Assembly: GCA_001873365.1 (NCBI GenBank)
Contig: MNYZ01000032.1
Span: forward strand, 1 to 32,611
Length of the DNA stretch: 32,611 bases
From: Oscillatoriales cyanobacterium CG2_30_40_61
Lineage (GTDB): Bacteria > Cyanobacteriota > Cyanobacteriia > Cyanobacteriales > Microcoleaceae
Direction: 5' to 3'
Of the stretch, positions 4,778 to 31,938 are shown piece after piece (within the stretch, counting starts at the first letter, position 1; every line of letters starts with the position of its first letter). The position numbers and the translations under genes are program-made. The notes beneath the pieces were generated by a model. It was not told the origin of the DNA. It saw only the letters and a program-made list of their open reading frames with translations, and did no database searches.

Positions 4778-6354
4778 TACCGATTATTGCCTTGATGAAC
4801 GGTCTTGACCCACTTGAGTTGTTTGGCACGAATCCCCATCCGAGGAGTTGTACTTCCTACTACTAATAACCAGTGCAGCATATAGATCGTACCCCGCAGG
4901 GTATCAATTCCCAGGGTTGATTGTTCGGAAAAGGGGGGAAATGTCTGGCTGCTGTGGGTTGAACCCGATTCTGGGTTAATATTAACCATGGTCCCTGGTG
5001 TTTGGCGAATCCGTCGTAATCCTAAGAACATTCCCAATAGGGATAGAGTCAGGGTAAAACCGGTTAGGGGTGTGGTTAACGGTAAACGACCTTGAATCAG
5101 CGATAGCACCAAATCAGGAGCCGCCGCCGTCGGTAGGATATATTGGGTGAGCCAGAAGCAAAACAAATCCAGGCTTTTTTGAGTTCCCATGCGATTGCGT
5201 ACAATCAACTGCCCATAGTCTAAATAGCGTTGATAGCCGCCTTCGGCCCAACGGTTGCGTTGATGCCAAAGGGCCTTAAAATTGGTGACTCCCTCCTCGT
5301 ATACCGGGGGAAAAGATAAACATTCAATATCCCATTGATCCAAATGCAGCCGAATGGTTAAATCTAAATCATCGGTGATGGTTTCTTCACTCCAACCCCC
5401 ACAGCTTAACAGGGCTTCCCGTCGGACAAACTGCCCATTTCCCCGCAGTTCTCCAATTCCACCAATACTAATCCGTTTTTCTTGGAAATAGGCATCTAAA
5501 GCCATTTCTGCGGCTTGGGAGCGAGTCCAAAAATTTTCGGAAGCATTATTAATCGCTTTTCGCACTTGGACGGCGCCTACTGATTCGGGGTGGAATAGGG
5601 GAACAATATGGCGTAACATATCCGGTGCGATTTGAGCATCGGCATCAAAGACCCCGATAATCTCTCCTTGAGTTAAGCCTAAAACTTGATTTAAAGCCCC
5701 TGATTTTCCCCCACTGGCATTCTCCGAGCGCCGTAATACTTTGAGTTGTGGATAGTCTTGGCTGAGTTTTTCCAAAACTATAGGGGTTTTATCGCTACTA
5801 TGATCATCAACAACCCATAATTCATAACAATCACTGGGATAATCTAAGTTACATAAATTTTTAACTAATTGACTAATAACGGCTTCTTCATTTTTAGCCG
5901 CCACTAATAGGGAAATATAGGGCCAATCCTGTTGAGGTTTTTCCGGTACGGTTTGTTGTTGGGAGCGTGTCGGAGCTAAGAAAAGTCTGAGGGCGTGAAT
6001 GGATAATAGACCTGTTAGACCCAGGGTAAACCCCATCCCCCAAGACACAAAATGCAGGGCAATCATCCCGCCCCAAATTAAGATTAAGGCAAGGGCGGCT
6101 TTCCGTCTGCGACCTTGATACCATTGGGGATAAACCTGGAAATTTGAATGGTTTTGATTCACACCCCTGCTCGGGTACAATGGGTTACTGGCTACCGAAG
6201 GGTAAACAGTCTCACGGTATCGACTTTCTTCCTGATGCAGTTGGGACTGGGGAGCCGGAGATTGACCAAGACACTCTTGATCGCGGGTGAGCTTCTTTAA
6301 ATCACTATTGTCTGTACTGTCAGAATCCTGTTCTGGCCAAGACTGTTTTGGCAT
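4777..6354 (-). CDS. Membrane family 2 glycosyltransferase (processive type)
   Basis: A 525-residue inverting GT-A glycosyltransferase with the full D,D,D,QxxRW signature of cellulose- or hyaluronan-synthase-like enzymes: DD at 183-184 (VVDDHSSD), DAD at 237-239, TDDLD at 327-331 and QRNRW at 365-369. Hydrophobic segments at about 85-128 and further ones after residue 390 place it in the cytoplasmic membrane, with the catalytic domain facing the cytosol. The first 80 residues are polar and low in complexity. No PilZ domain is seen. It stands alone between repeats, so the sugar and product (exopolysaccharide, glycolipid) cannot be named. The TAA stop is immediately followed by heptamer sequence. 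Confidence 0.88.
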   Translation of the reverse strand: MPKQSWPEQDSDSTDNSDLKKLTRDQECLGQSPAPQSQLHQEESRYRETVYPSVASNPLYPSRGVNQNHSNFQVYPQWYQGRRRKAALALILIWGGMIALHFVSWGMGFTLGLTGLLSIHALRLFLAPTRSQQQTVPEKPQQDWPYISLLVAAKNEEAVISQLVKNLCNLDYPSDCYELWVVDDHSSDKTPIVLEKLSQDYPQLKVLRRSENASGGKSGALNQVLGLTQGEIIGVFDADAQIAPDMLRHIVPLFHPESVGAVQVRKAINNASENFWTRSQAAEMALDAYFQEKRISIGGIGELRGNGQFVRREALLSCGGWSEETITDDLDLTIRLHLDQWDIECLSFPPVYEEGVTNFKALWHQRNRWAEGGYQRYLDYGQLIVRNRMGTQKSLDLFCFWLTQYILPTAAAPDLVLSLIQGRLPLTTPLTGFTLTLSLLGMFLGLRRIRQTPGTMVNINPESGSTHSSQTFPPFSEQSTLGIDTLRGTIYMLHWLLVVGSTTPRMGIRAKQLKWVKTVHQGNNR

Positions 6355-6668
6355 AGATAATCTAATTTACCCCTCAATATTCGTCCAATCTGCTACCAGT
6401 GTATCTAATATTGTGACGGTATCTACAAATATTGAGGTTAATAGGCTGGTCTTCACCAGATGGCGGAAAACGTACGGGGATAATAGCTTGTCGGCTGATT
6501 TTATTGATAAAAAGGATTTTACCCCAAAATCCTTTTTTTGTGCAGTTTATGATGAAGTTGCGATCGCCTTTGAAAATAAAAAGCGATCGCTACCCCTACA
6601 ATTATTGAACTATTGAGTCATTGTACAAGACGCGATCATCTTCAAGTTATTCCCAATTTTAAACCAAC
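6355..6668. other. Intergenic region between the GTPase and GT2 genes
   Basis: A 314-bp gap between two minus-strand genes. It contains a small CTGGT-CTTC-ACCAG hairpin (6446-6459), a strong 12-bp inverted repeat (6509-6537), and two HIP1 octamers (around 6560 and 6583). The GT2 promoter should lie near 6360-6450 on the minus strand, but no clear -10/-35 pair was identified. A 109-codon plus-strand frame crosses it but is not convincing. Confidence 0.5.
6509..6537 (-). terminator. Strong hairpin, possible bidirectional terminator
   Basis: A perfect 12-bp inverted repeat (AAAAAGGATTTT / AAAATCCTTTTT) with a 5-base loop. The arms end in T runs on both strands, as in intrinsic terminators. It lies about 130 bp beyond the stop of the minus-strand GTPase gene, so termination of that transcript is the simplest role. 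The stem is AT-rich and its strength is uncertain. Confidence 0.6.
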
Positions 6669-9428
6669 TCAAGAAAACAGTTGGTTTGATAAGTTTATTA
6701 TTGTTTTCATACCTGATTTAAGGTTCTCTACACCTGACTTGAGCATATCGATGAACGTCTTGTAATCATTAATTTCATCCTGAAGCTTTTTGGCAATATC
6801 TACCTCGCCTTCCTGCTTGGCTACTTCGTTAAGTGTTTCAAGGTAGTCCAGATAGTGTGGATTAAATGGTGCCATCACAAGTGTTGAAAGTTCATCTACA
6901 ACCAGTCGCAATCCTTTCAATTTTTCTTCTATTTCAGAATCAAGAGAACTGATTTTTTGGTTGATTTCTTTTTGCAATTTCTTTCTGTTAAGCAAATCCT
7001 GCTCTTTACCTTGTTTTTTCTTCAGGTTCTCATTGTCAGTAATTTCCTCTCTAATTTCCTCCCGATCCATTCTGGTGCATTCATGGGTGTGAACCGTGTA
7101 TCTATGACCACATTTAGTACACATTCCCTGCGAGTTCATAGCGGAGCAGCCACTTAGATCTAATTGCTTGTATGACAAACCACAGTTGACATGACAGTTA
7201 CTACCACAAATTGTACAGAAAGTGTTCCACATGGCTGGTGTCTCTTTAGCTGAAACCCTGATCCTTTTCACCGTGATATTGCCGATATCCTTAGACAAAT
7301 CATCCAATTCACGAATTACTTTTTTTAAGGCTTGTTTGTGATTATTTAATGTCGCAATTTGAGCATAAATTTCACTACGATTTTTTTCCAACTGCTTCCT
7401 TTTTTGAACTATATTTTTAAATACTTTTGAAGAAACTGGATCGACTTCTTGGGCTAACTGTATTAGTTCATTAAATGATTGGTTTGCTTCATTTCTGAAC
7501 ATCAAAGATACCCTACTCCACTCTTCAGCAGTTACCCACAAATTATCAAAACAGATGACGGGACATTGCTCTAAACCTGCGGCTTCTATTGCATCCTTTG
7601 TATCGGCATCAACCTCTAATGTATTAGTCACACAAACTACAAGGTTTTTGTAACGATCTTTAGGCAATAATTCTTTCAAGCATCCTACAACAAATTTCTG
7701 CTCCGTCGTTAACCTCTTTTCATTCCAAACAATCCCAAATATATGTACCTGGTTTAGTTGTGTTATCTGCTCAAGAATTTGCTTCATGTGAGAGCGATCT
7801 GTTTCCACACCTGTTGTATCAGCAAAACCAGGAGTATCAATAATGTGTAAATCAAACTCTTGAGTTTTAAATGTATATTTGGAAGTCGATGTAGTTGCAC
7901 TAGCCCCCTTTGCACGTTGTTGGTTTTCGGTATTCAGGTGTGCAAATTGCTCTTCAGCTTCTAATTTATTGCCTTTTTGTGATCTTGTAGAGATACAGTA
8001 TTTACGTTCTGTTTTGTTTTTCCCATCAACACCAAGACACCAGTTGTAGAAGGCATTGATCAATGTTGACTTTCCAGCACCAGTCTTTCCTACAAAACAT
8101 ATAGTAAGCTCTTTCCGTGGTTGTATTTTATCTGCCATTGGAAGCGAGTCGTTCAGGTTAACTAATTGTCCGTCTTGTGAATTCATTAGAGAAGCTCCAT
8201 AACTTGCTATTTTCTGTTGTTGCAGATTTTTCAATGCTTCAAATTCAGTCTGTATCCATTCCAAGGGGAAATCACTCTCTAACTGAAATAAACGAAGTTC
8301 GTGAGAAGGGTTAATCTGCAAGTAATATAAATCGGCAAAAAAAGCTGCCAGTAATTGGTGGATTTTTACGATCGCATCTTTAATAAGTTTGAGACTTTCA
8401 TCTTTTGTCTTTCCACCCGATGTCTCTAACTGATGTTTTTCTTCCAGCCAATTCCAAGTAAACGTTTCTGGAAGTGATCCCTCACAACCCCAAAAATGTA
8501 TATGAAAATAAATTTTTTCATTGGTTACGTCGCTATAAATAACCACTGTTGGGATCGGAGATAAATCTCTTTCTAGCTGCAATTTTACTTCTGTATCAAA
8601 AACCGAACTTTTGAAAAACTTTCCGTAGAATTCGACAGGGCAAAGCTCACTATCAAGTGGATAGTATTTCCCTATAAACTCTTTTAGTTCACTTCGCACT
8701 GTCTTATGGAAAGTGGCATCAAATTCTGGGCAGCCTTCAATATCTGGGGGAGACACAAGTATGAGCAGATGATGTTTCTGTCGCCCTCTGACAAGGATCT
8801 CTCGCATTTCCTCGCGGCTTAAAACACCAGACCAGTTTTCTCGATCCCATGTCGCCTGAATTTCTTGAAGCTTTAAATCAATATCTTTGGCTTTATTTTC
8901 TTGCACAAGTTGTAAGTGCAGATAACTTAGCTGGAGTCTTTCCGCCCGTTCTTTTTCTAATATCTCTAACTCGCGTTCCCGCAGTTCTAAAGTTCGTTCA
9001 ATTTGCTGTTGCTGAACTTCAGCGATGTTGCCATCCTGTTTGAGTCGCTCTTTAGCTAACTGTAAAGCTTGTTTTTTCAGTTGCAGATCCTTTTCGGAAA
9101 TTTCGAGAGCGCGTTCTCCTCGCTGTGCTTCTGCTGCGGCAATCTCCATACCTGCTCTAATCTCGATCTCTCGCATACTGGCAAGGTCTGCTTGGATCTT
9201 GACTAACTCCTGCTCACGTTTCGCTTTGCCTCGCAGATACTCAGCCTCAGCTTTTCGGATCTGGTCATTTTCGGCTCGTTTAGCTAGTGCTGATTGATTT
9301 GCGGGAGGAGATGATTTACTTTGTGGAGAAGTATTTGCAAGTTTTCTACTAGCAACGTTTGCAATAATTCGGCTAGCAGTTATTGATATAAACGAACCAA
9401 TTGCAACAAAAATTTGAGTAGTCACCAT
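6669..9428 (-). CDS. Large coiled-coil GTPase with a Cys/His cluster
   Basis: A 919-residue protein with an unusual architecture. Residues 1-28 are hydrophobic or amphipathic and may bind membrane. About 45-190 is a charged coiled coil. About 200-395 is a domain I cannot name. About 440-650 is a GTPase with P-loop GKTGAGKST (447-455) and DTPGF (531-535); VTNTLEVD may stand in for the G4 motif. It resembles AIG1/septin-like GTPases more than classical translation factors. A second coiled coil leads to a cluster of Cys738, 741, 745, 749, 761, 770, 773, 784 and His746, 775, 780, 782, likely to bind zinc. A further coiled coil follows to the end. From memory, similar Cys/His segments occur after G domains in eukaryotic AIG1-like proteins; this needs a profile search. 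A small Asp-rich gene lies 48 bp upstream. Function is unknown; membrane remodelling or a conflict/defence role are guesses. Confidence 0.85.
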   Translation of the reverse strand: MVTTQIFVAIGSFISITASRIIANVASRKLANTSPQSKSSPPANQSALAKRAENDQIRKAEAEYLRGKAKREQELVKIQADLASMREIEIRAGMEIAAAEAQRGERALEISEKDLQLKKQALQLAKERLKQDGNIAEVQQQQIERTLELRERELEILEKERAERLQLSYLHLQLVQENKAKDIDLKLQEIQATWDRENWSGVLSREEMREILVRGRQKHHLLILVSPPDIEGCPEFDATFHKTVRSELKEFIGKYYPLDSELCPVEFYGKFFKSSVFDTEVKLQLERDLSPIPTVVIYSDVTNEKIYFHIHFWGCEGSLPETFTWNWLEEKHQLETSGGKTKDESLKLIKDAIVKIHQLLAAFFADLYYLQINPSHELRLFQLESDFPLEWIQTEFEALKNLQQQKIASYGASLMNSQDGQLVNLNDSLPMADKIQPRKELTICFVGKTGAGKSTLINAFYNWCLGVDGKNKTERKYCISTRSQKGNKLEAEEQFAHLNTENQQRAKGASATTSTSKYTFKTQEFDLHIIDTPGFADTTGVETDRSHMKQILEQITQLNQVHIFGIVWNEKRLTTEQKFVVGCLKELLPKDRYKNLVVCVTNTLEVDADTKDAIEAAGLEQCPVICFDNLWVTAEEWSRVSLMFRNEANQSFNELIQLAQEVDPVSSKVFKNIVQKRKQLEKNRSEIYAQIATLNNHKQALKKVIRELDDLSKDIGNITVKRIRVSAKETPAMWNTFCTICGSNCHVNCGLSYKQLDLSGCSAMNSQGMCTKCGHRYTVHTHECTRMDREEIREEITDNENLKKKQGKEQDLLNRKKLQKEINQKISSLDSEIEEKLKGLRLVVDELSTLVMAPFNPHYLDYLETLNEVAKQEGEVDIAKKLQDEINDYKTFIDMLKSGVENLKSGMKTIINLSNQLFS

Positions 9429-9476
9429 ACAACCTTAACACTGTTAATTGTTAGTCTTTTAATTCAAACTTAAGAT

Positions 9477-9707
9477 TTAATCGCAAGAGTCGTCACCCCC
9501 GTAATCGCCAGCATCACAATCTCCATCATGATCGTTGTCTTCACAGCCATCGTAGTAATCATCATTATGGTCGTCATACTCCTCTTGATGGTCATGATCA
9601 TAAGGATCTTGGTAGTCATCACCACTACTATCACCTTGATAGGAAGAATGATTTCGACGACGGCGAAGCTCATCTGTGAGAGCATTTAAGGCATTGTGAA
9701 CATTCAT
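9477..9707 (-). CDS. Small Asp-rich acidic protein, unknown
   Basis: A 76-residue frame. The first 20 or so residues are helical and basic (ending RRRRNHSS); the rest is dominated by Asp, with Tyr, His, Gly and three Cys. By my count 21 of 76 residues are Asp. It could bind metal ions or mimic nucleic acid, but no family is recognised. It lies on the same strand as the GTPase gene, 48 bp upstream of its start, suggesting one transcript. No good Shine-Dalgarno sequence is visible. The GAT/GAC-rich DNA is close to a trinucleotide repeat, so a chance open frame cannot be excluded. The alternative frame (Met/Ile/Thr-rich, 9470-9685) is clearly the less protein-like one. Confidence 0.5.
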   Translation of the reverse strand: MNVHNALNALTDELRRRRNHSSYQGDSSGDDYQDPYDHDHQEEYDDHNDDYYDGCEDNDHDGDCDAGDYGGDDSCD

Positions 9708-9826
9708 AATTGATATTGAAGATATCGTTCAGATTGATCGTAACAATAAATTTTTATTTTGTCCGTACTAAAAAGCCTACTTAATATCGGGAGTTTTCCA
9801 GACAACAACCTAAAATAAAATGGGTA

Positions 9827-9864
9827 AATAGGGGGAAATGTTGGACAATAGGGGGAAATGTTGG
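9827..9864. promoter_or_regulatory. Tandem 18-bp direct repeat before the STAND gene
   Basis: AATAGGGGGAAATGTTGG occurs twice with no mismatch, at 9827-9844 and 9847-9864, a 20-bp period. It lies between the divergent acidic-protein and STAND genes. A plausible promoter for the STAND gene overlaps it: TTGGAC at 9841-9846 and TACAAT at 9866-9871, with a long 19-bp spacer. A 20-bp period means almost two helical turns, fitting a pair of protein-binding sites on the same DNA face. The binding protein is unknown. Confidence 0.55.
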
Positions 9865-9900
9865 GTACAATATAACCAAAGTTGACATCTACCAGACTTT

Positions 9901-11274
9901 ATGAATCTTGAGAACGTGTTAAAACTTGCTGATGATCTGATATTTGCGAGAACAGGTAAGCATCTGAATGATTTACAAGAAACGATTCTACGAGGAACAT
10001 GGGATGATGAAGACTACAAAGAAATTGCCAAAACTGTTAATCGTTCTGAGGATCGAGTTAGAGAAGTTGGAATGGAATTATGGCAAATTCTTTCACAGCA
10101 GTTAGGGGAAAAAGTTAGTAAATCAAATTTAAGATCAGCAATGGAAAGGTTACAAGTCTCACTATTTTCAAATGTCGGACAAGATCATGTTCAAGTTGGT
10201 AATATTAACTTTTGTGAAAAAATAAGACAACCACCAGATATACCTAACTCAAATTCAGATTATCAACAATCACCAACTGAAAATCACGAATTAAGTGAAA
10301 TGCCAGAATTAGGTGTTTTTTACGATCGCACTTCCGAACTCGAAACCCTAAAAACCTGGATTTTACAAGAACATGGTCGCTTGATTACAATTACGGGTAT
10401 CAGTGGTATTGGAAAAACGAAATTGACCGTAAAACTTATACAAGAAATCCAACATAATTTTGAATATATTTTGTGGTATAATTTAGATTACTCCTCAAGT
10501 TTTACTGAATTTAAAACCGAATTAATAGAGTTATTTGATCAAAGCACAGATAGTGAATTAATCGCTAAAAATGGAAAGCGTTTAAAACCAATTAAATATT
10601 TACAAAAGCATCGCTGTTTAGTTGTTATTGATAATCTTCATCACCTGTTTTATAGTAATCAACTAGCAGGACAATATCAATCAGAATATGAAGAATTTCG
10701 CTATTTATTCAAACAGATAGAAGAATTATCTCATCAAAGTTGCTTTCTGCTCATTGGTTGGGAACAACCCATAGAATTAGCTGAAATTAGAAGCTCAAAT
10801 CCACGATTTAAAGCCCTAACCATTCGAGGGTTAGAAACAACAACTATAGCAGAGTTTTTTCCAGAACAAGAATTGGGAGAATATGAAAAATTAACCCCCA
10901 GGATTCATCACTATCAAGGTAATCCATTATGGTTAAATATAATAGCAAATTTTATCCCAGAAATGGAAGATTTTGGGGATAAAATTATTGAAAATAATAC
11001 TATTTTTTTACCCCAAAGTTTAAAGGATAATTTACAAAAGCAATTTAATCGTTTATCCCCAATTGAAAAACAAGTTCTATTAGAATTAGTTCAGCAAGAG
11101 CAACCTGTAAATTTAGCCCAACTTTTGATCAGGGGACAAATTCCTTCCTCAGATTTACTCAACGCCCTACAATCTCTATTCAGAAGGTGTTGGTTAGAAA
11201 AGCCAGACCATTTCTACTATTTACCCCCTGTTCCCAGGCAATATATCGCTCAAATGTTAACAAAACCTGACTAA
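9901..11274 (+). CDS. STAND-type NTPase with N-terminal vMAP-like helical domain
   Basis: A 457-residue protein. Residues 1-85 resemble the helix-turn-helix-like domain common at the N-terminus of cyanobacterial NB-ARC proteins (LNDLQETILRGTWDDEDYKE). A linker follows, then an NB-ARC-type ATPase: P-loop GISGIGKT at 166-173, Walker B CLVVIDNL at 239-246, and a GNPLW segment typical of the helical part of STAND proteins. A winged-helix-like region ends the protein. There are no WD40, TPR or other C-terminal sensor repeats and no obvious enzymatic effector, so it is short for the class. STAND proteins act as nucleotide-driven switches in signalling or defence. It is divergent from the GTPase/acidic-protein pair and is preceded by a tandem 18-bp repeat. 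Confidence 0.8.
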   Translation: MNLENVLKLADDLIFARTGKHLNDLQETILRGTWDDEDYKEIAKTVNRSEDRVREVGMELWQILSQQLGEKVSKSNLRSAMERLQVSLFSNVGQDHVQVGNINFCEKIRQPPDIPNSNSDYQQSPTENHELSEMPELGVFYDRTSELETLKTWILQEHGRLITITGISGIGKTKLTVKLIQEIQHNFEYILWYNLDYSSSFTEFKTELIELFDQSTDSELIAKNGKRLKPIKYLQKHRCLVVIDNLHHLFYSNQLAGQYQSEYEEFRYLFKQIEELSHQSCFLLIGWEQPIELAEIRSSNPRFKALTIRGLETTTIAEFFPEQELGEYEKLTPRIHHYQGNPLWLNIIANFIPEMEDFGDKIIENNTIFLPQSLKDNLQKQFNRLSPIEKQVLLELVQQEQPVNLAQLLIRGQIPSSDLLNALQSLFRRCWLEKPDHFYYLPPVPRQYIAQMLTKPD

Positions 11275-11438
11275 ACACAGCCAAGATATTAGAATTATTT
11301 TTTGAGGATAGGATCAAACTGCTCCTACTACTGATCAACGATTTAGACAGTCAGGGTCAGGATTTTAGCCTTGAGGATGAAATCTGGGATAAATTAAGAG
11401 TAGGTAACGCGATCGCAGGAGTAACAATCTATGACTGA
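11271..11438 (+). pseudogene. Possible gene remnant, open frame without a start codon
   Basis: A 55-codon frame between two stops, with no ATG, GTG or TTG. It encodes a protein-like sequence containing FEDRIKLLLLLINDLD and LEDEIWDKLRVGN. It follows the STAND stop directly in another frame and ends in a TGA overlapping the first codons of the next gene. It may be a fragment of a decayed gene or chance; no family is recognised. Confidence 0.25.
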
Positions 11439-11820
11439 CATGACAGTCGCTCTGACTCAACTCAAAGCCGCTGAGAAACGGGAAATTGGGGTCTACCTGC
11501 CCTACTATGATGAAAAGAAGCGCAAATACTTGCCCTATTCGATTAGCCTTTATAAAGAAAAGAGCTTGGAAGGCGCTCGGAATATTGATGGCGGAGATGG
11601 AATTCCCTTTGTGGCTACTTGGAATGTTTCCTCTTTACCCGCCGATTTAACCCGTTGTCGAGTACAGTTTGATGGCAATGCCGATCTCAGTTATGAAGTG
11701 ATCCTGTGTAACTATGAATTTATTAAGTATTTAATTGAAGTTCTGCAAAATTTTAGCCGGACTCGTACCGTTGATTTTTCTCAAGAGTTCTATAAGAAAC
11801 TTTTGCATTTGGATCATTAA
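11431..11820 (+). CDS. ebsA: EbsA-like type IV pilus-associated protein
   Basis: A 129-residue soluble protein conserved in cyanobacteria. The segments REIGVYLPYYD, GIPFVATWNVSSLPADLTRCR and QFDGNADLSYEV match what I recall of the EbsA family. In Synechococcus elongatus, EbsA is needed for type IV pilus assembly and biofilm self-suppression. There is no signal peptide or membrane segment, so it should act in the cytoplasm with the pilus motor. An AGGAG at 11417-11421 is nine bases before the ATG. The following BioD/DRTGG gene is on the same strand 150 bp downstream, an arrangement I believe recurs in other cyanobacteria. The assignment rests on remembered sequence, not on a search. Confidence 0.7.
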   Translation: MTDMTVALTQLKAAEKREIGVYLPYYDEKKRKYLPYSISLYKEKSLEGARNIDGGDGIPFVATWNVSSLPADLTRCRVQFDGNADLSYEVILCNYEFIKYLIEVLQNFSRTRTVDFSQEFYKKLLHLDH

Positions 11821-11973
11821 ATAAAGATTCACTCTACAATAGAAAGGCTACTGTTAAACTGTGCTAATTTCCTTTGAAAAGACTGATTACCTTAAATATT
11901 TTAAGGGGGAGTCTGGGGGAAATGTCATAATTTTTTGAATTGAACGATAACGAATTCAGGAGTAAATTTGGTC

Positions 11974-13062
11974 ATGGATCATCGAAAATATATATTAATA
12001 GGGTCAACGGAGCCTTACACAGGTAAATCGGCTATTACCTTGGGTCTGGGTCATCTGTTTCAGGATCAGGGGTTAAAGATTGTGTATGGTAAGCCTTTGG
12101 CTACCGATATCAGTGATGAGAATGAATCCTTTGATGCTGATCTTCAGTTTGTGGCTCAAACCTTAAAATTGTCTCAAGAACAACTGTTATTCCCGATTTT
12201 AACCCTAGATGAAACCACAATTCATCAACGTTTACGAGGGGAAGATTCGGTCAAATATACGGAATCTTTGACTTCCTATCAACAGGAATCCTCTGCCGAT
12301 CTGATTTTACTCGAAGGGCCAAGAACCTTACAAGAAGGGCTGTTATTTGGTTTGTCTGTTCCTCAAATCGCCGATCAACTAGATGCGTCAGTTTTGTTAG
12401 TGGCGCGTTTCAATTCTCTCTTAGCATTAGATGATTTACTATACGCTCAACAACGTTTAGGCGATCGCTTATTAGGAATTATTATTAATGATGTTCCCCC
12501 CGAAAAACTAGAAATTACCACCACTCACATGCAACCGTTTTTGGAAGCCCAAGGAATTCCAGTATTTGGAGTTTTACCCAGAAATCCTATTTTACGAAGT
12601 GTCACCGTTAAAGAATTAGTTAAACAGTTGAAAGCCCAGGTTCTTTGTGGTCATGAACGCTTAGATTTGATGGTAGAAAGTTTGAGTGTCGGCGCCATGA
12701 ATGTCAGTTCGGCGATGAAGTATTTTGATAAATCTGTGAATATGGCCGTTGTGACCGGGGGCGATCGCACCGATATTCAACTAGCAGCTTTAGAAAAGTC
12801 TACTCACTGTTTAATTCTCACCGGTCAACTTCCCCCCGCACCCATGGTTTTAAGTCGGGCTGAAGATTTAGAAGTACCCGTCCTTTCTGTTGATTTAGAC
12901 ACCTTAGCAACGGTAGAAATTATTGATCGGACGTTTGGTCAAGTTCGTCTCCACGAACCGATCAAAGTTGCTGCTGTGAATCAACTTATGGATAAACATT
13001 TTGAACTGGAGCGTTTTATCCAATGGTTAGGAATTTCCTTACCTGTATCGGTTATTGGCTAG
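11974..13062 (+). CDS. BioD-like P-loop protein with DRTGG domain (phosphotransacetylase family)
   Basis: A 362-residue protein. Its N-terminal BioD-type P-loop domain has GSTEPYTGKSA near residues 10-20, and a central/C-terminal DRTGG domain includes VVTGGDRTDIQ. The same two domains form the N-terminal half of large phosphotransacetylases, but the catalytic PTA domain is absent, so acetyl-phosphate synthesis is unlikely. A regulatory or ligand-sensing role is inferred. The start is taken at the ATG at 11974. A TTG six bases upstream (11968) is also possible because AGGAG (11958-11962) is five bases from the TTG and eleven from the ATG. The gene ends eight bases before a strong inverted repeat. 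Confidence 0.82.
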   Translation: MDHRKYILIGSTEPYTGKSAITLGLGHLFQDQGLKIVYGKPLATDISDENESFDADLQFVAQTLKLSQEQLLFPILTLDETTIHQRLRGEDSVKYTESLTSYQQESSADLILLEGPRTLQEGLLFGLSVPQIADQLDASVLLVARFNSLLALDDLLYAQQRLGDRLLGIIINDVPPEKLEITTTHMQPFLEAQGIPVFGVLPRNPILRSVTVKELVKQLKAQVLCGHERLDLMVESLSVGAMNVSSAMKYFDKSVNMAVVTGGDRTDIQLAALEKSTHCLILTGQLPPAPMVLSRAEDLEVPVLSVDLDTLATVEIIDRTFGQVRLHEPIKVAAVNQLMDKHFELERFIQWLGISLPVSVIG

Positions 13063-13069
13063 TATGAAT

Positions 13070-13105
13070 CTTTGTAGAGACGTTGCTGGTAATGTCTCTA
13101 CAAAG
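13070..13105. repeat. 12-bp inverted repeat after the DRTGG gene
   Basis: CTTTGTAGAGAC and GTCTCTACAAAG are perfect inverted arms around a 12-base loop. The GTAGAGACGTT-type palindrome is a familiar intergenic repeat in cyanobacteria. It sits between convergent genes and could also help end transcription, although no T run follows. Confidence 0.7.
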
Positions 13106-16931: not shown

Positions 16932-18875
16932 CTAACTAACCTTAACCACAGCAGGAGTATATTCTGCCACTAATTGCCGAAATTGTTCTCCCTCTAAGGT
17001 TTCAATTTCTAACAGTAATTCCACCAACTGATCCATTAATATTCTGTTTTCCCGAACCATTTTTCGGGCTTGTTCATAACATTCAAAAGCCAGATCTCGA
17101 ATTAGATGATCAATTTGGGTAGCTACTTCCTCCGAATATTCCGATTGAGAGGGAAATCCTCGACCCAAAAACACTTCCTCCGAGGGACTTTCTAAAGCCA
17201 CTAAACCCAATTCCGACATCCCATAACGAGTTACCATTTCCCGGGCTAAATTCGTCACCGTTTGAATATCATTACTAGCTCCAACCGTAACTTCCGAATC
17301 CCCAAATACCTCCATTTCCGCCGCCCGTCCGCCCAAACAAATCGTAATTTGATCAATTAACCAGGATTTGGTATATAATCCACTATCGACCATTTCCTCA
17401 TTAAACATTTGTTGAGCAAAACCGCCAATTCCTCCAGAACGCGGAATAATGGTAACTTTATTTAAAGGATCGGAATTCTTCAACAAAGTCATTAACAAAG
17501 CGTGTCCGATTTCATGATAGGCAATCAGACGCTTTTTCTTACTATCTAATAACGGCGTTAAAGCTAACCCAATCGTAATCCGATCAATCGCATCATCAAT
17601 TTCTAAAGGAGTAATTGCTTCCTGGCGACGTCGGGCGGTTAAAATTGCCGCTTCATTGAGTAAATTCGCTAAATCTGCCCCCGATAATCCCGGAGTCCGA
17701 CGGGCGATCGCCTCTAAAGAAACCTCCTCCGATAACTTCTTATTCCGAGCATGAACTTCCAAAATCCCCAAGCGGCCATTAAAACTCGGTAAATCCACCA
17801 TCACCTGTCGATCAAATCGACCCGGACGTAATAACGCCGCATCCAAAACATCAGGGCGGTTAGTCGCCGCAATCACAATAATTCCCGTATTTCCTTCAAA
17901 CCCGTCCATTTCCGTTAATAATTGGTTTAGGGTTTGTTCGCGCTCATCATTTCCCCCACCAATACCCGCGCCCCGTTGACGTCCGACCGCATCAATTTCG
18001 TCAATAAACACCAAACAGGGGGCATTTTCCTTCGCCTTTCTAAATAAATCCCTGACCCGGGAAGCGCCGACCCCCACAAACATCTCCACAAATTCCGACC
18101 CAGAAATACTAAAAAACGGTACTCCCGCCTCTCCAGCCACCGCCCGGGCTAATAGGGTTTTTCCTGTCCCTGGCGGCCCAATTAACAATACCCCTCGGGG
18201 AATTTTAGCCCCAATCGCGGTAAAACGCTCCGGTTGCTTCAAGAAAGTGACAACTTCCTGCAATTCTTCCTTAGCTTCCTCAATTCCGGCCACATCCTCA
18301 AATAGAATTCCGGTTTTCGCCTCCATTTGAAATCTGGCCTTGGATTTGCCAAAATTCATCGCCTGACCCGATGCTTGGGTAGACCGTCGCAAAATCATTA
18401 ATAAAACCGCCAATAGGCCAAAAATAATCAGCATATTGACAATCAGCCCCATGGCCACACTATTATCCGCCGAGGGACTCACCCCATACTCGACATTATT
18501 CGTCCGAATTTCCCGCATCAATTCCGGGTTTTGGGCAAACAGGGATACAAAATATACCGACCCAGGTTTTTTATCTTTTTCCCCTTTCAAGGTGACTTTC
18601 GCCATTTGTCGCGAGGGGTCTTCTTCAATTTTTTGGACTTCCCCGGCTTGAATTTTCTGCAACAGTTGACTGTAGGTGATGGTTTTTGGGGTGTTATCGG
18701 CAAAGGCCGGAGTTCCCAGTAGCACCCCCTGGGCGATGATCCAAGTCCCCAAAAGCCTTCCCAGTTGTTTCCCAATCTTCGTTTTTTGGGGGACTATCTG
18801 TTGAGGATTTGACCCTCCCATCCAGGTTTTGATCCAAGACCTATTCATTCTACCTTTTCCTGTTGCTACGCTCAT
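16932..18875 (-). CDS. ftsH: FtsH membrane AAA+ zinc metalloprotease
   Basis: A 647-residue ATP-dependent membrane protease. There is a hydrophobic N-terminal segment (about 40-60, ending before ADNTPK), a luminal/periplasmic domain, and a second membrane helix (about 140-162). The AAA domain has Walker A GPPGTGKT (233-240), [15 protein letters not shown], and the second-region-of-homology arginines ([20 protein letters not shown]). The zinc motif is HEIGH (454-458). It degrades unassembled or damaged membrane proteins; in cyanobacteria, FtsH complexes act in photosystem II repair. The [20 protein letters not shown] region is closer to what I recall of the FtsH1/FtsH3 types than of FtsH2. Cyanobacteria carry several copies, and which orthologue this is needs a tree. 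Confidence 0.96.
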
Positions 18876-30330: not shown

Positions 30331-31938
30331 ATGACCGCAGGAATTATCCTGGTTATATCCATCTTGGTTTTAGGAGGTGTGATTGCAACCGTTAGCGATC
30401 GCCTTGGAACTAAAGTGGGAAAAGCCAGGTTGAGTTTATTTAATCTCCGCCCCCGCAACACTGCTATGGTTGTGACTATTTTAACAGGCAGTGTGCTTTC
30501 GGCATTGACCTTGGGGATTTTATTTGCTTCGAGTAAACCCCTACGTCGAGGTGTGTTTCAAATTGATCAAATTCAAAGTAGATTGAATGATGCTCGCAAG
30601 GATTTAACTCGGGCCGAAGATGAAAAAAAACGGGCAGAAAAGGATTTAGCCCGGGCTAAAATGGAAATTAACACCGCCATGGCGCAGTTAAATACGATTA
30701 ATCAATCCTTACAAATTGCTCAATCTCAAGCCATGAGAACATCAGAAGAATTGGAAAAAACTCAAAATCAATTAGGAGATCTTCAGAAACAATTACGCGA
30801 AATTCAAGTAGCCCGCACCGCAACGGAAGCTGAACTTAAAAATAGAGAAGATCGACTCCAAGTGGTGTTTCAACAAAAACAAAGTTTACAATCAGAAATT
30901 CAAAAACTGAGAACGGAACGTCGAAATTTGATTCAGCAACAGGAACAAGTTAAGGCACAAATTCGCAATCGCGATCAAGAAATTGCCAAACGGGATCAGG
31001 AAATTGGCAAACGTGATCAAGAAATGAAACAGCAGGATCGCGAACTCGAACAACAGGAAAAACGGATTACTGAACAGGATCAAATTATTGCTAAACGGGA
31101 ATCTCGACTTCAAGAATTGGAAACTGAACAGACAAAATTAGAACAGCAAAAACAAGTTTTAAGTCAACAGGTGGAACTGATTGGACGGGATTTTCAATTA
31201 TTACGAGAAGGTAGTGTGGTTTTAGAACGGGGCCAGGTTTTATCCAGTGGCTTAGTTAGAATTAGTGACCCAAAAACTTCAATTCAAGCGGTTAATACGC
31301 TTTTAAAAGAAGCCAATAATTATGCCATTGAGTCTGTACAATTAGGAAATATTAAGGTAGATCAAGCCCGGGTGATCCAAATTACAAAAGCAGAAGTTGA
31401 AGACTTAATTAATCAAATTGATGATGGTCGAGATTATGTGGTACAAGTGATTTCGGCTGCTAATTATTTAGTTGGGGAAACTAAAGTATCGGTTTTTACT
31501 AAAGCTGAACCGAATCGATTATTATTTACAACAGGAGAAATTATTGCGGGCACAACCTTGAATCCTTCTATTTTATCTAATGATCAATTAAGAAGGCAAA
31601 TGCAACAACTTTTAGATGCGTCTAGTTTTCGGGCGCGTTTTGTTGGGGTTGTGGGGGGAAGAGTACAAATTGGTAATGATAGAATGGATACATTAATTCG
31701 TTTTTTCCAACAAGTTCAAGAACATAATCAACCCTTGGAAATTCAAGCTATTGCGGCTGAAGATGCCTATACAATTGGGCCGTTAAGATTGGATTTATTA
31801 GCACTTCGCAATGGAGAAGTAATATTTAGTACCCGACAACAGGAACAGTTTAATAATTCTAATCAATTAGAAAATCCCTCAACTGAAATACAGAATAATA
31901 TAAAAAATTCTACTTCCCAATCTGATACTATTCAATAA
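30331..31938 (+). CDS. DUF3084 coiled-coil membrane protein
   Basis: A 535-residue protein conserved in cyanobacteria. Two N-terminal membrane helices (about 4-20 and 48-66) enclose the conserved VSDRLGTKVGKARLSLFNLRP loop. A long charged coiled coil (about 85-290) follows, rich in repeats of RDQEI type, then a globular C-terminal domain (about 295-500) and a polar tail. Function is unknown; the design suggests a membrane-tethered scaffold. The DNA around its stop is duplicated (31918-31951 and 31979-32012). Confidence 0.85.
   Translation: MTAGIILVISILVLGGVIATVSDRLGTKVGKARLSLFNLRPRNTAMVVTILTGSVLSALTLGILFASSKPLRRGVFQIDQIQSRLNDARKDLTRAEDEKKRAEKDLARAKMEINTAMAQLNTINQSLQIAQSQAMRTSEELEKTQNQLGDLQKQLREIQVARTATEAELKNREDRLQVVFQQKQSLQSEIQKLRTERRNLIQQQEQVKAQIRNRDQEIAKRDQEIGKRDQEMKQQDRELEQQEKRITEQDQIIAKRESRLQELETEQTKLEQQKQVLSQQVELIGRDFQLLREGSVVLERGQVLSSGLVRISDPKTSIQAVNTLLKEANNYAIESVQLGNIKVDQARVIQITKAEVEDLINQIDDGRDYVVQVISAANYLVGETKVSVFTKAEPNRLLFTTGEIIAGTTLNPSILSNDQLRRQMQQLLDASSFRARFVGVVGGRVQIGNDRMDTLIRFFQQVQEHNQPLEIQAIAAEDAYTIGPLRLDLLALRNGEVIFSTRQQEQFNNSNQLENPSTEIQNNIKNSTSQSDTIQ

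Follow-up and report, generated by a model that had tools for sequence, protein, structure and literature searches.

What does a GTPase with long helices and a cysteine- and histidine-rich cluster do in a cyanobacterium, and with which genes does it work? The question is raised by a locus of Oscillatoriales cyanobacterium CG2_30_40_61, in the 32,611-nucleotide stretch analyzed here (MNYZ01000032.1, assembly GCA_001873365.1; hereafter the window), which lies on contig C101 of a 4.8-Mb genome. A preliminary description of positions 6669-9707 had proposed a two-component system of the GTPase and a small acidic protein. The two genes do stand together, but they are part of a three-gene cassette, since a conserved gene for a STAND protein (9901-11274), absent from that earlier reading, is transcribed divergently from them. 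STAND/NLR proteins are a hub of plant and animal immunity. We conclude that the GTPase system is most likely one swappable cargo of a cyanobacterial family of STAND transcription switches. The parts on which this conclusion is built are the following:

9901-11274, forward strand: STAND gene, 457 residues, with a helix-turn-helix (HTH)-like N-terminus (residues 1-83) and an NB-ARC domain (131-457).
9866-9871, forward strand: TACAAT, a -10-like hexamer directly 3' of the repeat array and 35 bases before the STAND start.
9827-9864, forward strand: repeat array preceding the STAND start, in which a 20-mer made of two alternating 10-mers occurs 1.9 times.
9708-9900, no strand assigned: divergent promoter region common to the acidic gene and the STAND gene, aligning with the corresponding locus of Oscillatoria princeps RMCB-10 (L025).
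9477-9707, reverse strand: gene for the small Asp-rich protein, 76 residues, supported by in-frame conservation and a ratio of nonsynonymous to synonymous substitution rates (dN/dS) of 0.115.
6669-9428, reverse strand: GTPase gene, 919 residues, supported by its open reading frame (ORF), Pfam matches and a dN/dS of 0.125 relative to its orthologue.

The acidic gene is thus separated by 48 bp from the GTPase gene and by 193 bp from the divergent STAND gene.

For 38 genes with the STAND N-terminal part, 18 from the same genome (out of its 33 STAND-like matches) and 20 from other genomes, the upstream regions were compared with those of 159 controls, which were ATG-initiated ORFs of at least 150 residues from the same loci, deduplicated by 20-residue stretch. 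The set contains orthologues among congeners and three genes that match STAND in the N-terminal part only (L083, L084 and L085, the start codon of L084 being uncertain); two loci of the same genome without that part (L081 and L082) were dropped. Identity at a lag of 10 bases was 0.393, compared to 0.291 in dinucleotide shuffles (z 17) and 0.278 in controls, with more peaks at 20 and 30. At a threshold of 18 matches in 30 at lag 10, repeats with a period of 10 were detected in 28 of the 38 STAND upstream regions and in only 3/159 controls, one of which itself faces a STAND gene across its array. The repeat unit varies from gene to gene. A good -10 hexamer preceded 25/38 STAND genes and 43/159 controls. 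It lay at exactly -35 from the start codon in 15 of the 25 and within -39 to -32 in 24 of them, an interval in which 9/159 controls had theirs. Alignments show that the repeats mostly extend up to the hexamer, at the place expected for a -35 element. The nearest upstream ORF was divergent for 32/38 STAND genes and 60/159 controls; some of the ORFs counted in this test (at least 70 residues) are spurious, as in L025 and L033.

The same features recurred in 40 further STAND genes that had been held out, one of which lacks an ATG where the alignment places its start; a rough similarity cut-off without gaps thinned this set to 26. Repeats were found in 22 (13 after thinning), the placed -10 box in 21 (11) and a divergent neighbor in 38 (24). 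What the STAND genes face is variable. Among nine divergent neighbors scanned, two RTX proteins, one AAA ATPase and one lipase-like protein scored above Pfam cut-offs, an FG-GAP-like and a Gtr1/RagA-like protein fell just under them, and three were unmatched. The Gtr1/RagA-like protein, just below its cut-off, is faced by a STAND gene on contig C7 of the same genome (L079, 2744-3811), and a G protein may therefore be cargo twice. Elsewhere (L068 upstream of 3999, L035 and L036) STAND genes face ORFs of 58-75 residues, possibly a small-protein class of cargo.

Repeat similarity was correlated with N-terminal similarity over all pairs (r 0.459). In its own genome, an 18-mer of the window array has two exact sites, both within that array, and four further sites at one or two mismatches, where a reversed control has one.

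The cassette is rare and its presence is discontinuous. A pattern scan of 84,980 species genomes, which reaches close relatives only, returned one orthologue of the GTPase, that of O. princeps. The half of the protein with the G domain and the Cys/His cluster matched 1/386 genomes of the phylum at E up to 1e-6, its own, and 3/378 genomes of the order at E up to 1e-4, namely its own, O. princeps and G586 (weakly, and in the G domain only). Nine congeners gave no GTPase match at E up to 1e-4, and no relative of the GTPase or of its N-domain (described below) was found in the plasmids, phages and viral contigs searched. Judged from these searches, the GTPase is very rare. In O. princeps the same three-gene divergent layout is found between different flanks, with DNA similarity that begins at 6667, immediately beyond the GTPase stop, and ends at 10418, within the STAND gene. 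The cassette is absent from three congener loci (L062, L063 and L066), where the glycosyltransferase region adjoins that of EbsA. A fourth congener locus (L067, of genome G390) matches both flanks, window positions 6412-6505 corresponding to its 5839-5932 and 11240-13100 to its 6021-7880, which defines a further feature:

6506-11239, no strand assigned: segment without counterpart in congener G390, gained here or lost there, delimited by the flank matches to L067.

About 35 bases from the 3' end of the STAND gene are retained in L067, which makes a loss from that genome no less likely than a gain in the window. A TnpB-like ORF (named by eye), the only one between the flanking regions, lies on the left at the cassette site of L067 (4618-5829), and together with the STAND remnant it marks an unstable site.

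In the O. princeps locus L025 (413-12938) the cassette and a HicA/HicB pair are placed between genes matching the PADLOC models SWIM_XIII (E 3e-239) and WGR_XIII (E 0), and an RT_XIII gene (E 6e-202) lies beyond SWIM_XIII. Given the usual gene order of type XIII retrons, the locus may be read as one such retron interrupted by the cassette. The upstream region of its reverse transcriptase gene (1816), with 19/30 matches at lag 10, is among the three controls that passed the array threshold. Around the window copy, two candidate defense genes were discarded: the IetA-like match at 16935-18875 proved to be a protease of the FtsH type, and the JetC-like match at 30331-31938 a DUF3084 protein.

The cargo itself is a GTPase of composite architecture. 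From its N-terminus it consists of a hydrophobic or amphipathic start, a long helix, the N-domain, the G domain, a helix, the Cys/His cluster and a C-terminal helix, with three of these regions located as follows:

8184-8846, reverse strand: N-domain, GTPase residues 195-415, common to WD40- and FGE-sulfatase-fused cyanobacterial proteins.
7494-8156, reverse strand: TRAFAC-type G domain, septin/AIG/GIMAP-like, residues 425-645, supported by Pfam and a dN/dS of 0.056.
7077-7217, reverse strand: cluster of eight Cys and four His, residues 738-784, supported by a shuffle test and by the ligands of the orthologue.

The P-loop (GKTGAGKS, residue 447) and DTPG (531) noted in the preliminary description are present, both ORFs lie at the positions it gave, and the AIG1 likeness it had suggested is supported for the G domain by a score of 30.7 bits against a cut-off of 27. 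The match spans only positions 29-133 of the 212 in the AIG1 profile and is outscored by MMR_HSR1 (33.2 bits, also above its cut-off). In a profile search of the PDB with the G domain, the matches to septins and to GIMAPs were no better than E 0.04 to 1. Membership in LeoBC, for which there was a PADLOC match (E 1.2e-11), was rejected because the match covers only residues 403-536, the P-loop region. The hydropathy of the best 19-residue stretch at the N-terminus was 1.62, and 1.12 in the orthologue; the membrane-type start claimed earlier is therefore marginal.

The cluster comprises Cys 738, 741, 745, 749, 761, 770, 773 and 784 and His 746, 775, 780 and 782. Twelve Cys/His within 47 residues were reached in none of 20000 shuffles (the GTPase has 37 Cys/His in total). 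Conservation of these ligands had been named as a test, and the single orthologue, 83% identical overall, retains 12/12 of them and 28/35 of the remaining residues in the same stretch. The cluster is a probable zinc-binding module, and no Pfam model matched it above threshold. It may resemble a pattern in eukaryotic AIG1-like proteins.

The acidic protein contains 21 Asp and 4 Glu. It is 71% identical to its O. princeps counterpart, with indels in frame and the low dN/dS given above, and we therefore regard the frame, predicted earlier on the same strand as the GTPase, as a genuine gene; it is under purifying selection. It lies upstream of the GTPase gene in both known orthologous loci, the point that a neighborhood survey was to check, though two loci are few. 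Its profile matched 1/386 genomes of the phylum, its own. Calcium binding was considered and rejected: each orthologue has one DxDxDG, but shuffling the residues of the protein yields such a motif in 625 of 5000 trials.

The unnamed 200-residue domain of the preliminary description is real and corresponds to a cyanobacterial family, usually WD40-fused. GTPase residues 115-414 match proteins in 20/386 cyanobacterial genomes, its own counted; 11 of 14 loci inspected have WD40 repeats (by eye), two (L016 and L017) have an FGE-sulfatase domain, confirmed by Pfam, and L020 has another C-terminus. A distant branch, found from genome G229, is present in 141/378 genomes of the order, and 25 of 30 inspected loci end in WD40 repeats, as counted by eye in the last 200 residues only. 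The window's genome encodes a second N-domain protein, of this distant branch (C1:25186-26082, in a 938-residue frame). No Pfam model matches the N-domain of the window, its profile had no sequence match among solved proteins except a coiled-coil hit (E 0.57), and an AlphaFold model (predicted local distance difference test score, pLDDT, 67.7; predicted template modeling score 0.70) matched no fold in the PDB at E up to 0.001. In G586 (L090, 3200-6052) an N-domain gene is followed after 34 bp by a septin-like GTPase ORF ending at an early stop (Septin 35.8 bits, above the cut-off; AIG1 14.9, below). The N-domain and the GTPase are thus neighbors in G586 and fused in the window protein. Another ORF follows the septin-like one.

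In several loci (L002, L004, L005, L008, L009 and L012) N-domain/WD40 genes adjoin genes for a sulfate ABC transporter ATPase or a sulfate-binding protein, as judged by eye. This company, the predominance of WD40 fusions among N-domain relatives, and the proteins scanned around the window copy, which are metabolic, signaling or proteolytic enzymes or of unknown kind, would suit a membrane-remodeling or cytoskeletal (septin/dynamin-like) module of GTPase and acidic protein, working in stress or housekeeping without a defense role and placed in a retron by chance. We consider this unlikely, if worth serious attention, as a GTPase present in two loci, absent from nine congeners and elsewhere found inside a retron shows accessory behavior.

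The STAND protein is a hybrid. Its NB-ARC domain scored 35.1 bits (Pfam cut-off 23.5) and its P-loop, GISGIGKT, is invariant in six aligned sequences, while residues 1-83 resemble sigma region 4 or HTH domains below the Pfam cut-off, several HTH families matching weakly. Residues 1-83 are 69.9% identical to the O. princeps protein and 54.2-57.8% to four congener STAND proteins, whereas for residues 131-457 the relation is inverted, with 49.1% to O. princeps and 74.1-86.1% to the congeners. The synonymous distance (dS) between the window and G157 was 0.255 in the NB-ARC part and 0.742 in a flanking glycosyltransferase of the same two genomes; this lower value points to an exchange of the NB-ARC part later than the separation of the species. 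It seems that the N-terminus moved along with promoter and cargo, but that the ATPase part did not. The N-terminus nearest to that of the window among those compared (78%) belongs to a STAND protein of G229, which faces a 729-residue protein with an N-domain (hhalign probability 97.4%, E 1.5e-11).

This hybrid make-up bears on another explanation, in which STAND acts on the GTPase at the protein level, as an NLR-like sensor that binds its partner and directly switches it, and the repeats set only the dosage of STAND. STAND NTPases are indeed discussed as effector switches or sensors in bacterial conflict systems, in the available portions of two papers (PMC7159879 and PMC8195603), and the HTH assignment is weak. 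Exchange of the NB-ARC half while N-terminus, promoter and cargo stayed together disfavors contact between NB-ARC and GTPase, however, and the neighbors in the STAND family look too diverse for a single contact surface, so that we rate direct partnership as rather improbable. It is more improbable still that the STAND gene is an unrelated neighbor of a unit comprising the GTPase and acidic genes only: in its favor, 33 STAND-like matches in the genome could make adjacency a matter of chance, the NB-ARC half resembles that of the congeners, and the G586 N-domain/GTPase pair has no STAND in the 6.8 kb inspected. Against it, the same divergent order and promoter sequence recur in O. princeps with different flanks, and the STAND protein of a third genome, G229, that is closest in its N-terminus has an N-domain protein opposite it.

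The genes and their conservation, the patchy occurrence of the cassette, the hybrid STAND and the layout of repeats, promoters and divergent neighbors are observed; the reading of STAND as a transcription switch built on them can be put as a sequence of proposed steps. STAND would be made from a promoter in which the -10-like box comes right after phased 10-bp repeats, and its HTH-like N-terminus would bind those repeats. A signal would cause nucleotide exchange and oligomerization of the NB-ARC domain, and the oligomer would activate both its own gene and the divergent operon, from which the acidic protein and the GTPase would be produced. The long helices and the N-domain may then allow the GTPase to assemble, possibly at the membrane, into an AIG/septin-like effector carrying a zinc-type Cys/His module, with the acidic protein as its small partner. 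We infer a role in stress or defense. That the locus is a mobile three-gene cassette of this kind, composed of a STAND switch, its own operator and a divergent acidic/GTPase cargo operon serving such a role, is in our estimate very nearly an even call. More tentatively, filamentous cyanobacteria may possess a large NLR-like STAND family in which each member has a private, 10-bp-phased operator array replacing the -35 element and a swappable divergent cargo; the DNA-binding part, operator and cargo would move together and the NB-ARC part would be exchanged, the GTPase being one cargo, an immunity-type effector. The range of cargo, in an equally tentative form, might include GTPases, AAA ATPases, RTX and other secreted proteins, and small peptides.

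Several observations weigh against these proposals. The array is below threshold in 10/38 promoters and in 13/26 of the thinned held-out ones, and in the window the array amounts to no more than two 20-bp copies. The correlation between repeats and N-termini is weak among pairs under 75% identity (r 0.286, p 0.0035) and lacks significance under 60% (r 0.162, p 0.10). For the HTH-like part there was no useful PDB match; Sigma70_r4 reached 17.8 bits (cut-off 24.1), with 7/12 STAND members at E up to 0.1. A recombination point within a shared gene family requires no functional reason. The GTPase has a single known orthologue, at 83% identity, and the structure model of its G domain and Cys/His cluster, built from two sequences, is at pLDDT 40. 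No defense genes were recognized among the proteins scanned around the window copy. Finally, in 1.5-kb flanks of 30 N-domain loci the only STAND match was at G229's own locus and the only clear G-domain match at G586's own, and this scarcity slightly lowers our confidence.

How does the locus compare with systems already known? AIG-type GTPases are effector domains of bacterial iSTAND conflict systems with MoxR and vWA partners, according to the available part of Kaur et al. (2020, PMC7159879), and STAND, AIG GTPases and ECF-like HTH domains are discussed in conflict systems in that of Kaur et al. (2021, PMC8195603). The window GTPase is like the former, as far as they are described there, in being a P-loop GTPase above the AIG1 cut-off with helical extensions and a nearby STAND-type NTPase in a cyanobacterium. 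It differs in being fused to the N-domain and the Cys/His cluster, and the window STAND differs in its complete P-loop, its HTH-like part and its divergent transcription. No MoxR or vWA gene was recognized among the immediate neighbors in the window and L025, or by Pfam among ten further window proteins, smaller ORFs lying outside that scan. The earlier statement that no bacterial system of this layout is described thus needs dividing: AIG-type effectors were already known (PMC7159879, in its available part), and it holds for this architecture within the literature searched. The kind of effector is known, and the architecture of this GTPase is new to it. NB-ARC domains on cyanobacterial sigma70-like proteins have also been reported (PMC11119718), and the window STAND similarly joins a sigma-region-4-like part and NB-ARC in a single protein; the available part of that paper classifies domain architectures and leaves repeat arrays and variable divergent neighbors unmentioned. 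Regarding type XIII retrons (PADLOC), the O. princeps cassette sits between the SWIM_XIII and WGR_XIII genes, but the cassette genes match no retron model and no retron gene was recognized among the window proteins scanned.

Neither the GTPase architecture nor the repeat and cargo rule was found described in the literature searched (open-licence PMC papers), nor were targets for the many cyanobacterial STAND relatives. The setting of the GTPase points to a widespread regulatory design, likewise not found described there. With a readable operator and a neighbor facing it, dozens of STAND proteins in each genome that are now orphans would become regulators for which a target is predicted and a binding site can be tested. 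The GTPase would add to the candidate AIG-like effectors of bacteria one that has a Cys/His module and whose cassette has entered a retron. The nearest working analogy is MalT, a STAND transcription activator. Like MalT, the window protein combines a putative DNA-binding part with a STAND ATPase and has repeats at the promoter. Unlike MalT, its HTH-like part is N-terminal and closest (weakly) to sigma region 4, it has no large sensor repeats, and the DNA repeats are phased at 10 bp beside the gene's own -10-like box.

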